Source: Rhodospirillum sp.
GTDB taxonomy: Bacteria; Pseudomonadota; Alphaproteobacteria; Rhodospirillales; Rhodospirillaceae
Reading direction: 5' to 3'
Assembly (NCBI GenBank): GCA_021741145.1
Contig: JAIOYK010000013.1
Coordinates: 1-64,000, forward strand
DNA: 64,000 nt
Of the stretch, positions 59,671 through 64,000 are shown piece by piece. The translations under genes were made by a program, and so were the position numbers. The notes under the pieces were generated by a model. The model had not been told where the DNA came from. It saw nothing but the letters and a program-made list of their open reading frames with translations, and searched no databases. Every line of letters begins with the position of its first letter. Within the stretch, counting starts at the first letter, position 1.

Positions 59671-59745
59671 TGCTTCGTGACGCGTCCTTGATCGCTTGTC
59701 GACGGGAACCGCCTTCCCTTGGGGAAGAGCGTTTGGCTTCGGACC

Positions 59746-59777
59746 AAAAAAAACGAGGGGCGGCAAATATGCCGCCC
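59746..59777 (-). terminator. Intrinsic terminator in the argD leader
   Basis: On the minus strand an eight-bp stem GGGCGGCA/TGCCGCCC with a four-base loop is followed by TCG and eight T. It lies 176 bases past the DegT stop and 76 bases before the argD start. It could end DegT transcription or be the terminator of an attenuator controlling argDF. Confidence 0.85.
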
Positions 59778-59952
59778 ATCGATTCCGAAGGAAGCGAGCT
59801 TTATTGCGCCTTTCCACGGGGTTGTCAACGCATGGTGGCGCCTCCGCATGGCACGGAACCCCGATGAAGGGTGTGGCATGCCGCCTGTCCTGGGAAAATC
59901 CAGGTCGAACTCCCCCCCTGTCCGGCGGTTTTGCCCGCCCCCTTTGCCGTGG

Positions 59953-61047
59953 TCAGGACAGCACCTCGGTCAGAGCCGCGATGACCGCGCTTTGCAAGGA
60001 ACCGGGGATCTGGGCATAGACGGGAAGGGACAGGGCGTCCCGACACCAGGTCAGGGCATTGGGCAGGTCGGTCTCCGCGTCCCCCTCCTCTCCCATATTC
60101 CGAAGCGCCAAGGGCCGCAGGACCCGATCTTCCATACCCAATGCGACGAGGCGATCCCGCGCCGCCGCTCCCGCCGCCCCAAAGATGACCGGAACACGGG
60201 CCAGATACTGGTCATAGACGTGGGTTGCCTCCGACAGCTCCCGGGGAACACGGATCCCCAAGGGAGCCATCGCCATGTCATAGCGGAGGGCCACGGACTG
60301 GCGCCGCAGAATTCCCCCTTCCAGACCCCGCATGCGCAGCCGGGCCACGCCCGCCCGCAAACCGTCCATGGACAAGGCCAAGGTCGCGGCCAAATCCCGG
60401 GCCCGGGCGTCCAGGGCGGGATCATCGGTCACCAGCAATCCCGCGGGTCCAAGGGCCGAGAAGGTCCGGTCTGGCCCAAGACAAAAAACCCCGATCCGGC
60501 CGATGCCACCACACCGCCGCCCCATGAGAGCCGCGCCAACGGCCTCGGACGCGTCCTCGATCACCGGAAGGCCATGGACCTGGGCCGCGGCCTCCAGGGC
60601 GGGAAGTTTGGCGGGGTGACCCGTCCGATGGGACACCAACACCGCCCGCGCGCCCGCGCCCCGGTCCGAACCAAGCACCCGCGCCAAGGCACTGGGATCC
60701 ATCAGCGGTTGCCCCTCCTCGACATCGACGGGAATAGCCCGGATCCCCAGGCGGGCAAGCGCCGCGTCAACACCAGCGTCGGCGAAGGCATCAACCAAGA
60801 CGCGATCACCATTCCCCAGACCCAACACCCTTAAAGCGAGTTCCACGGCGGTCACGCCACTCGACAAAGCCAAGGCATGCCCGACGCCTAACCAACGGGT
60901 AAAAGTTTGTTCCAATAAGGACACTTCACCATGGATACGAGACGGCTCCACCTCCGTGGAACGGACCATGACTTGTCGCAAATCCCCTTGAATTTCTCGA
61001 ATACCTGCGAGTAAATCGCGGAGAGGGATGGGTTCTTTTCCGATCAC
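59953..61047 (-). CDS. DegT/DnrJ/EryC1-like protein lacking the PLP lysine
   Basis: A 364-residue protein of the sugar aminotransferase fold. The cofactor-phosphate and aspartate features (HGLPVIEDASEAVGA, then LGPAGLLVTDD) are clear, but the lysine that normally forms the PLP Schiff base is R194 in GPDRTF. In the related dehydratases it is a histidine. So it is either a pseudoenzyme, a different PLP-independent protein or a dehydratase variant. It stands alone, upstream of argD. Confidence 0.85.
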   Translation of the reverse strand: MIGKEPIPLRDLLAGIREIQGDLRQVMVRSTEVEPSRIHGEVSLLEQTFTRWLGVGHALALSSGVTAVELALRVLGLGNGDRVLVDAFADAGVDAALARLGIRAIPVDVEEGQPLMDPSALARVLGSDRGAGARAVLVSHRTGHPAKLPALEAAAQVHGLPVIEDASEAVGAALMGRRCGGIGRIGVFCLGPDRTFSALGPAGLLVTDDPALDARARDLAATLALSMDGLRAGVARLRMRGLEGGILRRQSVALRYDMAMAPLGIRVPRELSEATHVYDQYLARVPVIFGAAGAAARDRLVALGMEDRVLRPLALRNMGEEGDAETDLPNALTWCRDALSLPVYAQIPGSLQSAVIAALTEVLS

Positions 61048-61179
61048 TGCCGTTTCCTTTCGCCAATGATCCGGACGCTAAGCATCTTTATTCCCGCAGT
61101 AAAGCTGTAGATATCCACAACCCGTTATTAAAAGTAGAAAAACACAATAGCATTTTCGCGTAAATTTACCTATTCTCCC

Positions 61180-62751
61180 CTATCCCTGGTAAAAGCGCCC
61201 CAAAGCGAGCATTTCACTTACCTTTTCCACACAAGCGCGCCATTCCCCCAAGGTTGTCTGTCGAACCAATCGCAGGCTGGGGTACCAGGGTGTAACCCCC
61301 CGCCCCCGCCCCCATCGCCAATCGCAATGGGCGGCGAGGAGCAGGATACAGGGCCGGTTCAGGGCTCCGGCCAGATGGGCCACGCTGGTATCGGTGGTCA
61401 CGACAAGATCAAGGCGCTCCATCATCGCCCCGGTCGCCGCGTAATCCGTCATCCAGGGGGCCAGGTCCGTCACCAAGGGGAAGCCGACCTCCTCCAGACG
61501 TTTCGCGGGTGGTCCCTTTTGCAGACTGTAAGCCTGGACCCCGGGACCCTCGGCCAGGGGCAGAAGGTCAAGGAGATCGCAGGCCCGGGTTCCATTATCG
61601 GCGAAATCGGGATTGCCGGACCAGCAGAGCCCCACCTTGAGCCCGTCTCTGGTCTCGCCCAAGGGGGGCGGAACAGCGATCCCCGGAGGCACCGTCACAT
61701 AAGGCGGGGAGTCCGAAGCCAGGTCGGAAAATCCAATGCCCAAACGGTGAGGCAGGCTGAAAGCCCGAATCCACAGGTCGTGTCCGTCTTCCTCCACCGC
61801 GCCAAAGGGGAGGACCCTCTCAACCCCGTCCAAGGTCGAGAACAGCGTAACCAGGGAGGGGTGGGCTTCCAGGATCACCCGGGCGCCCATGGCCGCGAGG
61901 CGGGGCATCCATCGAACCGCCTGGATCATGTCGCCCGCTCCCTGTTCGGCGGCCACCAGCAACCGCTTTCCCATCAGGGATCCCCCGGTCCATTCCGGCC
62001 CTGACGGATCGGGCAGGGACCATGCCGCGCGGCGACGGCGCCATTCATAGGCGGCGAAGCCCTCCCCATAGCGGTCGAGGCTCAGCAGAAGATTGGCCCG
62101 GTTCCACTGGCCGTCCGCCAGGGCCGGATCCAGCGCCACGGCTCGGTCCTGGATCTCCAGGGCCTCCCCGACCCGGTCCAGGCGGCGCAGCACCACCCCC
62201 AGGTTGGTGGCCACCCGGGCATTCGCTGGCTCCACCGCCCAGGCCCGACGCAACAGGGCTTCCGCCTCCACCAACCGTCCTTGCCGCGCCCTCAGATTAC
62301 CCAGGGTATAAAGGGCTGGGCCGTGGTCCGGGGCGAGGGCCAGTAGACGCTCGTGCAGAGCGACCGCCTCCTCCCTCCGACCGGCCTCGTCGCGCAGTCG
62401 GGCGAGGTTGAACAGCGTCTCGATCCGGTTCGGTTCCGTGGCCAGGGTCGCGGCCCAGGCGGCATCGGCGGCGTCCCACAGCCCCGCGCCGCGCAGGGCC
62501 ACGCCCAGATTGTGGAGAAGGCGAGGATCCGTCCCGGCCCGCCCCAGGGCCTGGCGGAAGAGCATGGCGGCCTCCGCCGAATTTCCCCGGTCCTCGGCCA
62601 AGGCCGCGAGCACGGCGAGCAACCGGGGGTGCCCCTCGTCCACGGCCAGGCCCATGCGAGCCAATTGGTCCGCCCGGGCCCGGTCCCCCCGGCTCCAGGC
62701 GGCCTCCGCCCGCTCCGCGATGGGGTCCAGGGGGTCGTTTTCCTCCGTCAT
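61180..62751 (-). CDS. TPR-domain protein with a C-terminal glycosyltransferase (GT9-like) domain
   Basis: A 523-residue protein. The N-terminal half contains about six TPR repeats (AAMLFRQALGRAG and similar). The C-terminal half has a GT-B glycosyltransferase resembling heptosyltransferases, with DLVVTTDTSVAHLAGAL as the donor-binding segment. Combinations of TPR with glycosyltransferase are common in magnetospirilla and Rhodospirillales. The start ATG 62751 is divergent from the next TPR gene. Confidence 0.87.
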   Translation of the reverse strand: MTEENDPLDPIAERAEAAWSRGDRARADQLARMGLAVDEGHPRLLAVLAALAEDRGNSAEAAMLFRQALGRAGTDPRLLHNLGVALRGAGLWDAADAAWAATLATEPNRIETLFNLARLRDEAGRREEAVALHERLLALAPDHGPALYTLGNLRARQGRLVEAEALLRRAWAVEPANARVATNLGVVLRRLDRVGEALEIQDRAVALDPALADGQWNRANLLLSLDRYGEGFAAYEWRRRRAAWSLPDPSGPEWTGGSLMGKRLLVAAEQGAGDMIQAVRWMPRLAAMGARVILEAHPSLVTLFSTLDGVERVLPFGAVEEDGHDLWIRAFSLPHRLGIGFSDLASDSPPYVTVPPGIAVPPPLGETRDGLKVGLCWSGNPDFADNGTRACDLLDLLPLAEGPGVQAYSLQKGPPAKRLEEVGFPLVTDLAPWMTDYAATGAMMERLDLVVTTDTSVAHLAGALNRPCILLLAAHCDWRWGRGRGVTPWYPSLRLVRQTTLGEWRACVEKVSEMLALGRFYQG

Positions 62752-62910: not shown

Positions 62911-64000
62911 ATGTCCGTCCTGGAAACCCTGACCACCCGCGCCGATGCCATGCTGGCGGAAGGACATCTGGCCGAAGCCAGGGATCTCTACCGCTCGGCC
63001 CTGGCCCTGACGCCCCGGCACGCCCCGGCCCTGGCGGGACTGGGCCGCATCTTGCTGGCCGTGAACCGCCCGGACGCCGCGGTGGAGTCCCTGACCGTCG
63101 CCCTCCGTTACGCGCCGGATCGGGTGGACATCCGGGCCGACCTTGCCGTGGCCCAGGCCCGCCAGGGCTGTCCCGCCGCCGCCCTGGAAACGGCCCGCTC
63201 CCTGCCATCGACCGAAGGCGCCCTTGGCTTTCAAGTGGATCAATTGGAAATACTTGGACAGCGAGACGAGGCCCTAACCCTGCTCGCCAGGGCCCGGGTC
63301 CTATTCCCGACCAGCCAGGAGATGCTGCGCCGCCAAGGCGTCCTCTTCCGGCGCGCGGGCCAGTGGGAGGACGCGGAACCCTGTTGGCGGGCCCTGGTCA
63401 CCGCATCCCCGGAGGACGCCAGCGCATGGTCCAGCCTGGGGACCACCCTGGCCGCCCTGGGGCGGGACGGGGAAGCGAACACCGCCCTTTCCCGGGCCAC
63501 GGAACTGGAGCCGGAGGAGGCGGACTGGTGGTACAACCGCGCCCATGTCCTGATTGACAGGAACCAACTGGAGGACGCCCTGCCCCTGGCCGAGCGGGCC
63601 GCCGCCCTGGCGCCGGACCGCCCCTATTGCCTGACCAACCTGGGGGTTTGTCGCCTGGGGTTGGGCGACGCACCGGGCGCCCTGGAGGCCCACGAACGGG
63701 CCGTCGCCCTTGATCCAGACGAGCCGGAGGCCCGCTACGACCTGGCCTGGGCCCAATTGACCGCGGGCCAATGGCGCGAGGGATGGCGCAACCACGAAGC
63801 CCGCTGGCGCATGCCCCACTTCACCAGCCGACGCGGCCCCCTGGCCGGACGCCCCTGGGACGGCACCCCCCTGGAGCCGGGCGAAACCCTGCTGCTGCAC
63901 GCCGAACAAGGACTGGGGGACGCCGTGATGATGGCCCGTCTGGTCCCGGTCGCGGCGGCCCGCGCCAGAGCGGGGGCGGGGGCGGGGGCGGGTGTCCGTG
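62911..64000 (+). CDS. TPR-domain glycosyltransferase-like protein (partial, runs off right edge)
   Basis: An open frame from ATG 62911 to the edge (363 codons, no stop). It has TPR repeats (residues about 1-290) and the beginning of the same GT9-like domain as the divergent neighbour (LLLHAEQGLGDAVMMARL). The two genes are therefore paralogs. The end of the window has an in-frame (CGGGGG)n tract that adds alternating Ala-Gly, just where the paralog continues with its next strand. The product beyond is not visible. Confidence 0.85.
   Translation, partial: MSVLETLTTRADAMLAEGHLAEARDLYRSALALTPRHAPALAGLGRILLAVNRPDAAVESLTVALRYAPDRVDIRADLAVAQARQGCPAAALETARSLPSTEGALGFQVDQLEILGQRDEALTLLARARVLFPTSQEMLRRQGVLFRRAGQWEDAEPCWRALVTASPEDASAWSSLGTTLAALGRDGEANTALSRATELEPEEADWWYNRAHVLIDRNQLEDALPLAERAAALAPDRPYCLTNLGVCRLGLGDAPGALEAHERAVALDPDEPEARYDLAWAQLTAGQWREGWRNHEARWRMPHFTSRRGPLAGRPWDGTPLEPGETLLLHAEQGLGDAVMMARLVPVAAARARAGAGAGAGVR
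63971..63992 (+). repeat. In-frame hexanucleotide repeat (CGGGGG)n near the right edge
   Basis: C residues recur every six bases (63971, 63977, 63983, 63989), giving 3.7 copies. It codes for alternating alanine and glycine. It is the same motif (opposite strand) as the tract in front of the STAND gene. Confidence 0.8.

Follow-up and report, generated by a model that had tools for sequence, protein, structure and literature searches.

Proteins of the DegT fold tend to be named aminotransferases on fold likeness, and the gene considered here, which matches the family with 161 bits in Pfam, would receive that label. Its sequence nevertheless says that the usual transamination route is closed. 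Arginine stands where the Schiff-base lysine is expected. What is a protein of this fold kept for when its central catalytic residue is gone? The question is raised by a single gene in the window, which is the whole stretch of 64,000 nucleotides of Rhodospirillum sp. DNA that was analysed. The protein is called DegT* below.

The gene and its assignment

59953..61047, minus strand: DegT*, 364 aa, which has the DegT fold and lacks the Schiff-base lysine; it begins with GTG at 61047 and its stop codon is at 59953-59955, from the Pfam match and orthologs
61048..61060, minus strand: candidate ribosome-binding stretch AAAGGAAACGGCA, purine-rich, abutting the GTG of DegT*, read from the sequence

DegT* belongs to the DegT/DnrJ/EryC1/StrS family by descent, as judged from its predicted fold and its match to PF01041 (DegT_DnrJ_EryC1) at 161.2 bits, the gathering cut-off being 19.8. 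All of its NCBIfam matches are sub-threshold; the best is PseC (TIGR03588), whose equivalog cut-off of 423.5 bits is reached neither by the window protein (110 bits) nor by the two orthologs introduced below (130.3 and 152.5 bits). The closest matches suggest descent from a PLP-dependent sugar-nucleotide aminotransferase. The G+C content of the gene is 65.1%, compared with 65.2% for the window, and the values of 74, 50 and 71% at the three codon positions are of the coding type. A promoter scan of positions 59700-61300 returned no sigma-70 promoter-like site, and a single terminator-like site was located at 59777-59758 on the minus strand, such sites being fewer than in shuffles.

Arginine in place of the catalytic lysine

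60466..60468, minus strand: codon CGG of Arg194, at the position of the catalytic Lys, from alignment and sequence
60436..60486, minus strand: motif F188-C-L-G-P-D-R-T-F-S-A-L-G-P-A-G-L204, with Ser changed to Cys189, Lys to Arg194, Asp/Glu to Pro201 and Gly to Ala202

The initial annotation had proposed that Arg194 replaces the Schiff-base lysine, and the alignment bears this out. Arg194, within FCLGPDR, falls in the Schiff-base column of DegT proteins, where all 31 rows of the same taxonomic family that have a letter carry Lys; the remaining row of the 32, a partial one, has a gap. These 32 canonical rows represent the top-scoring places to which loci were assigned from a longer match list, not all DegT genes of the family, and the 31 Lys rows include one protein twice (L006 and L052). 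Among more distant proteins the column holds Lys in 30 of 37 and His in 7 of 37; this set, 36 from viral contigs and one from a genome, consists of the best 37 by score among the 48 of 59 candidate frames that passed the filters. Arg is present in 3/3 proteins of the DegT* group versus 0/68 other rows with a letter there (31 family, 37 distant), and both orthologs read FCFGPER at the site. Additionally, the DegT paralogues of three genomes (G000, G001 and G031) have Lys in 7 of the 7 that reach the motif (L165, L166, L169, L167, L170, L171 and L178), L177 stopping short of it.

A sequencing error or local mutation was rejected as the source of Arg194: turning AAA or AAG into CGG takes two base changes or more, which a single sequencing error does not explain, and both orthologs carry Arg. 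Orthologs with lysine at this position, or a nearby lysine taking over the role, had been named beforehand as findings that would speak against the proposal. Neither of the two orthologs present in the genomes searched has Lys there, and the alignment of the three proteins contains no invariant lysine, so that no other lysine took the role in all three; K4 and K147 are the only lysines of the window protein. Replacement by another lysine was rejected on this ground. That DegT* is an active ordinary aminotransferase served by another lysine is extremely improbable: a Pfam match far over the cut-off is what such an enzyme would give, but the missing invariant lysine and the loss of further cofactor and substrate residues, described below, are not.

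Histidine occupies the lysine place in seven DegT proteins from viral contigs (L091, L104, L108, L120, L124, L126 and L137), as in ColD-type 3-dehydratases. The view that ColD-type exceptions use histidine agrees both with these rows and with the available part of PMC8987622, according to which His replaces the lysine in 3-dehydratases of the ColD, E1 and SpnQ types. The ColD and E1 enzymes of that account resemble DegT* in having a DegT fold without the Schiff-base lysine. They differ in carrying His, whereas DegT* has Arg in 3/3 proteins, and the phosphate-contacting Ser, which is kept in all 7 His rows, is lost in DegT*.

Wider loss of cofactor and substrate residues

60553..60555, minus strand: Asp165, invariant in the three proteins, at the aligned position where active relatives have the partner of the PLP ring nitrogen (role from the available part of PMC5936713)
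60364..60387, minus strand: deleted active-site loop (canonical R-x-x-G ... G-x-N-x-R), residues about 221-228, from the alignment, the exact ends depending on it

The initial annotation also held that the surrounding fold residues are kept. This is correct for the fold, but the lysine is not the sole change: among 76 strongly conserved canonical columns, 34 are kept in all three DegT* proteins, 25 are kept in one or two, and 17 are lost in all three. A column was counted as conserved at 80% or more of 30 canonical rows, the partial rows L003 and L004 being left out of the 32 and the identical L006 and L052 both retained. Gly or Pro accounts for 18 of the 34 columns kept. The 17 lost columns are V139, L141, A167, Q168, S189, K194, D201, G202, one Gly, the G, N and R of the loop region, R293, Y311, P314, H316 and Q318. 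The status of columns flanking gaps (about 222-226 and 311-318) is alignment-dependent. Four of the five conserved residues of the YPxPxHxQ stretch, which we take to line the substrate site, are lost in all three proteins, Pro312 being kept. The loop deletion, Cys189, Pro/Arg201 and Ala202 are likewise common to all three.

A relative for comparison is Spr1654, for which the available part of PMC5936713 describes Asp170 at the PLP ring nitrogen, Ser194 and Thr59 at the phosphate, Glu205 and Gly206 acting via water, Lys199 forming the aldimine, and a flexible 235-248 region with residues near the substrate. Counting relative to the lysine, together with the alignment, places Asp165, Cys189, Val65, Pro/Arg201, Ala202, Arg194 and the deleted loop at the corresponding positions of DegT*, a correspondence of sequence only. 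By that correspondence, Asp is the only one of the PLP contacts described in this part of the Spr1654 account that is kept in all three proteins; the phosphate-loop Thr is kept in the two orthologs and is Val65 in the window protein. The three proteins also have residues of their own: R141, C189 and R194 are common to all three and absent from the canonical consensus. They further share an invariant D86 and the invariant stretch ILRRQSxALRYD.

Two alternatives that keep DegT* an enzyme have to be weighed here, the initial annotation having raised a new reaction, which is possible. In one, cofactor binding would resemble that of ColD and proceed without an internal Schiff base, Arg194 serving a new reaction such as dehydration or isomerisation. 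The invariant Asp165 fits such a Lys-independent PMP/PLP enzyme, as does the precedent of ColD-type relatives, which use PMP with His for Lys according to the available part of PMC8987622 and are matched by 7 of 37 distant rows with His. Furthermore, the entry titles of 3nys, 4oca and 3dr4 describe structures in which WbpE, ArnB and GDP-perosamine synthase, each with this Lys mutated to Ala, carry PLP or a sugar ligand. Losing the lysine is therefore not enough to abolish PLP binding, so that a non-covalent role of PLP or PMP is possible. Against this stand the losses, in all three proteins, of Ser189, Asp/Glu201, Gly202, Gln168, the loop Asn and Arg and 4/5 YPxPxHxQ residues, and the retention of Ser in 7/7 His rows but not in DegT*; the explanation is unlikely.

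In the other alternative, the emptied cleft would have turned to different chemistry without a cofactor, using the newly conserved Arg141, Cys189, Arg194 and Asp86. The group-specific R141, C189 and R194 and the invariance of D86 and ILRRQSxALRYD are what it would predict. No neighbour is constant in all genomes with degT*, however, and we know of no related catalytic design, which counts against it; we regard it as unlikely to the same degree as the Lys-independent enzyme.

Predicted fold

The structure prediction that had been suggested as a check returned an intact DegT fold. The AlphaFold2 model of the window protein, built with 37 distant relatives, reached a pLDDT of 89.8 and a pTM of 0.90; its best PDB match in Foldseek is DesV (E 4.7e-28, TM 0.85), and it aligns with 7b0d over 344 residues at a Z of 43.6 and an rmsd of 2.4 A. 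The sugar-aminotransferase fold of DegT* is therefore predicted to be intact. In the model it is shared over nearly the whole chain with DesV, WbpE, QdtB and the Archaeoglobus sugar transaminase 7b0d, as are many glycines, Asp165 and further residues of the fold. These canonical aminotransferases possess the catalytic Lys, whereas DegT* does not, and the canonical rows conserve the phosphate Ser, the Asp/Glu-Gly pair, the loop and YPxPxHxQ, all of which DegT* lacks except Pro312. PDB entry 8y96, whose title names a hetero-oligomeric aminotransferase, is also among the structure matches; a paper on it was not found in the literature searched.

Orthologs, distribution and selection

A single-sequence search at E 1e-40 found DegT* orthologs in 3 of 73 family genomes, the window's own included. 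The other two, G030 and G031, belong to another genus, and their proteins are about 44% identical to the window protein. A profile of the three scores its members at 605-661 bits and any other listed protein in the 73 genomes at 220 or less; with it, some DegT match at 1e-25 occurs in 66 of the 73, and matches above 220 bits occur in the same three only. At the order level DegT* is present in 3 of 317 genomes, with the best candidates, up to 6 per genome, scored. With up to 5 candidates per genome scored, it is found only in the window's own genome, both at the class level (1 of 385, single-sequence search) and at the phylum level (1 of 398). At all three levels, orthologs may be missed. No close relatives were detected on plasmids, all 459 matching records lying below 60% identity and the 15 listed rows at 28.8-32.2%. 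A genome-contig scan and a first viral scan each produced one distant relative.

In the DegT tree, which was rooted at the midpoint only and built without the partial rows L003 and L004, the three DegT* proteins form one side of a branch supported at 100/100, the stem measuring 1.26 changes per column. The group is defined by these three sequences only, and the simplest account of its missing residues is that their common ancestor had already lost them. The two orthologs differ by a dN of 0.24 and a dS of 0.93, a dN/dS of about 0.26, which shows that DegT* is under purifying selection in this closer pair; the between-genera ratios of 0.38 and 0.44 are less reliable, dS exceeding 1.3.

These values bear on the suggestion that the gene is decaying and has been retained briefly by chance. 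The branch of the window protein is long (1.51, and flagged as such), presence among genomes is patchy, and the cluster adjoining degT* is decaying in G031, all of which a gene in decay might display. Such a gene would hardly combine a frame that is open in all three genomes, across two genera and at 358-364 aa (the G030 frame trimmed by us), a dN/dS near 0.26, coding-type base composition and Arg retained in 3/3, and decay is accordingly very unlikely.

A probable conserved PLP-free pseudoenzyme

The reading that best accommodates these results is that DegT* is a conserved PLP-free pseudoenzyme of the DegT/DnrJ/EryC1/StrS fold, to which we assign a probability of about 0.72. A pseudoenzyme had been among the first suggestions for this gene and is now well supported, with Arg in both orthologs, further PLP and substrate residues and the loop lost, and the predicted fold and purifying selection remaining. 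Because the catalytic residues are lost and the frame is under purifying selection, the protein can be classed, from three sequences, as a conserved pseudoenzyme; the same change in two related species makes a conserved non-enzymatic relative probable. Asp165 is the feature of a PLP-dependent sugar aminotransferase that is present, and the Schiff-base Lys, the Ser, the Asp/Glu-Gly pair and the loop are absent. With the lysine and cofactor-site residues missing, an internal aldimine with this lysine would be impossible, and DegT* most likely neither binds PLP nor transaminates. Asp165 in all three proteins, the phosphate-loop Thr in the two orthologs and the Lys-to-Ala structures of relatives count against the PLP-free reading.

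For the PLP-free pseudoenzyme, the mechanism that we consider most likely is one in which Arg194 would fill the vacant PLP site, and internal charge pairs of Arg194 and Arg141 with Asp165 and the acidic residue 168 might stabilise the emptied cleft. DegT* would then act by binding, as a scaffold or as a ligand-responsive partner. A more specific version, which we consider doubtful, is that the protein's own side chains have replaced the cofactor, Arg194 together with Arg141 occupying the PLP site and pairing with Asp165, and that the cleft binds a nucleotide sugar or glycan, thereby tuning the TPR glycosyltransferases of a second flagellar hook system. If true, a sugar aminotransferase would here have been turned into a PLP-free sensor.

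Pseudoenzymes of PLP folds are already known, such as SPTLC1 of serine palmitoyltransferase, a fold-type I pseudoenzyme subunit that has no lysine, is kept for a non-catalytic role and pairs with an active paralogue. SPTLC1 and DegT* both have a PLP fold without the lysine, whereas SPTLC1 lies on another fold branch and is paired with its active paralogue. In G030, by comparison, degT* is the sole PF01041 match above 32 bits, the other three of four matches scoring 27-32 bits, so that pairing with an active DegT paralogue is not the general mode; such a paralogue was rejected as a general partner. DegT enzymes without the lysine but with His are also known, according to the available part of PMC8987622. 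A DegT clade that combines a conserved Arg with a dismantled cofactor site did not turn up among the open-licence papers listed, and no title or opening of an abstract among them concerns a DegT protein with Arg for Lys. DegT* offers a clean case for what a PLP fold does without its cofactor site, with canonical relatives available for comparison.

Neighbourhood and possible flagellar link

61180..62751, minus strand: TPR-GT1, in which a GT9-like domain comes after TPR repeats; lies upstream of DegT* on the same strand, from Pfam; start codon chosen by us, the open frame being longer
62911..64000, plus strand: TPR-GT2, divergent from TPR-GT1, with TPR matches only in Pfam; continues beyond the window to contig base 64668

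A protein combining TPR repeats with a glycosyltransferase domain stands beside flagellar genes at the window locus, where TPR-GT2 precedes a conserved protein that has no Pfam match, and FliK, FlgD and FlgE come next. DegT* lies within such a cluster of flagellar hook and TPR-glycosyltransferase genes in 2 of 3 genomes. G030 has the order of the window, plus a GNAT acetyltransferase between TPR-GT1 and degT*. In G031, GNAT and degT* are present, and the 19.9 kb read there contains no TPR-GT pair, FlgD or FlgE; FliK beside degT* is split over two frames (L011:6790-8700), possibly by sequence error, whereas the degT* frame is open. G001, a genome of the same genus as the window, carries TPR-GT1 and GNAT and lacks degT*, and the window genome has no match to this GNAT at E 1e-10. 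DegT*, GNAT and TPR-GT1 thus occur together in only 1 of the 4 genomes compared. At 18 other TPR-GT1 loci, G001 included, a search at E 0.05 that recovered 3/3 positive loci found degT* at none. Linkage of DegT* to the glycosyltransferase pair is accordingly not constant, failing in G031 and at 18/18 other TPR-GT1 loci, and no neighbour is constant across all genomes with degT*.

The role of partner or regulator that had been proposed for DegT* can be set against this record: the neighbourhood suggests flagellar glycosylation, and the pattern of presence and absence is mixed. The TPR glycosyltransferases, the hook genes and, in two genomes, GNAT would point to modification of flagellar or surface components as the target. 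Since DegT* outlasts the cluster in G031 and is absent at 18/18 other loci, flagellar glycosylation is only a hypothesis, and a role in flagellar or surface modification must be regarded as tentative, with the odds against it.

The nearest known layout is the flagellin system of Caulobacter, in which the available part of PMC7591256 describes the aminotransferase FlmB (pseudaminic acid), the acetyltransferase FlmH and the TPR glycosyltransferase FlmG. A DegT protein, a GNAT and a TPR-GT near flagellar genes recall these three, a likeness of layout with the system as described there. Unlike FlmB, DegT* is without the catalytic residues, and the Flm system differs further in that the trio of DegT*, GNAT and TPR-GT1 is so rarely complete and that G001, G030 and G031 have no PseI-like match at E 1e-10. 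PseI-like matches were found in G000 only, at 5 places and none above the curated cut-off, and the pseudaminic acid pathway, seen in 1 of 4 genomes, was rejected.

Further observations on the flagellar locus and its relatives

The divergent TPR-glycosyltransferase pair in a flagellar locus is common in this taxonomic family. TPR-GT1 and TPR-GT2 form such a pair at 16 of 18 other family loci (L073-L090), one of the two misses being a 4.3-kb contig. The conserved protein between TPR-GT2 and FliK has 369 aa and no Pfam match (L010:14853-15962; contig bases 64853-65962, outside the window); its homologs lie behind TPR-GT2 at 15/18 other loci, and the pair plus this protein is present at 15 of the 18 other TPR-GT1 loci. 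By eye, a protein with an MSDDIPIIFA-like start lies downstream of TPR-GT1, in the same direction, at 15/18 loci (L074-L090), and a convergent gene of about 590 aa frequently comes next. FlgE/F/G-type matches number 5 in G031, versus 10 in G000, 9 in G001 and 11 in G030.

Two contigs of G000, C33 and C70 (L177 and L171), carry partial DegT frames at their ends with the near-identical peptide VALCxDLGLPVIEDST, so that the assembly probably breaks there in a repeated DegT gene. C70 also carries PseI-like genes.
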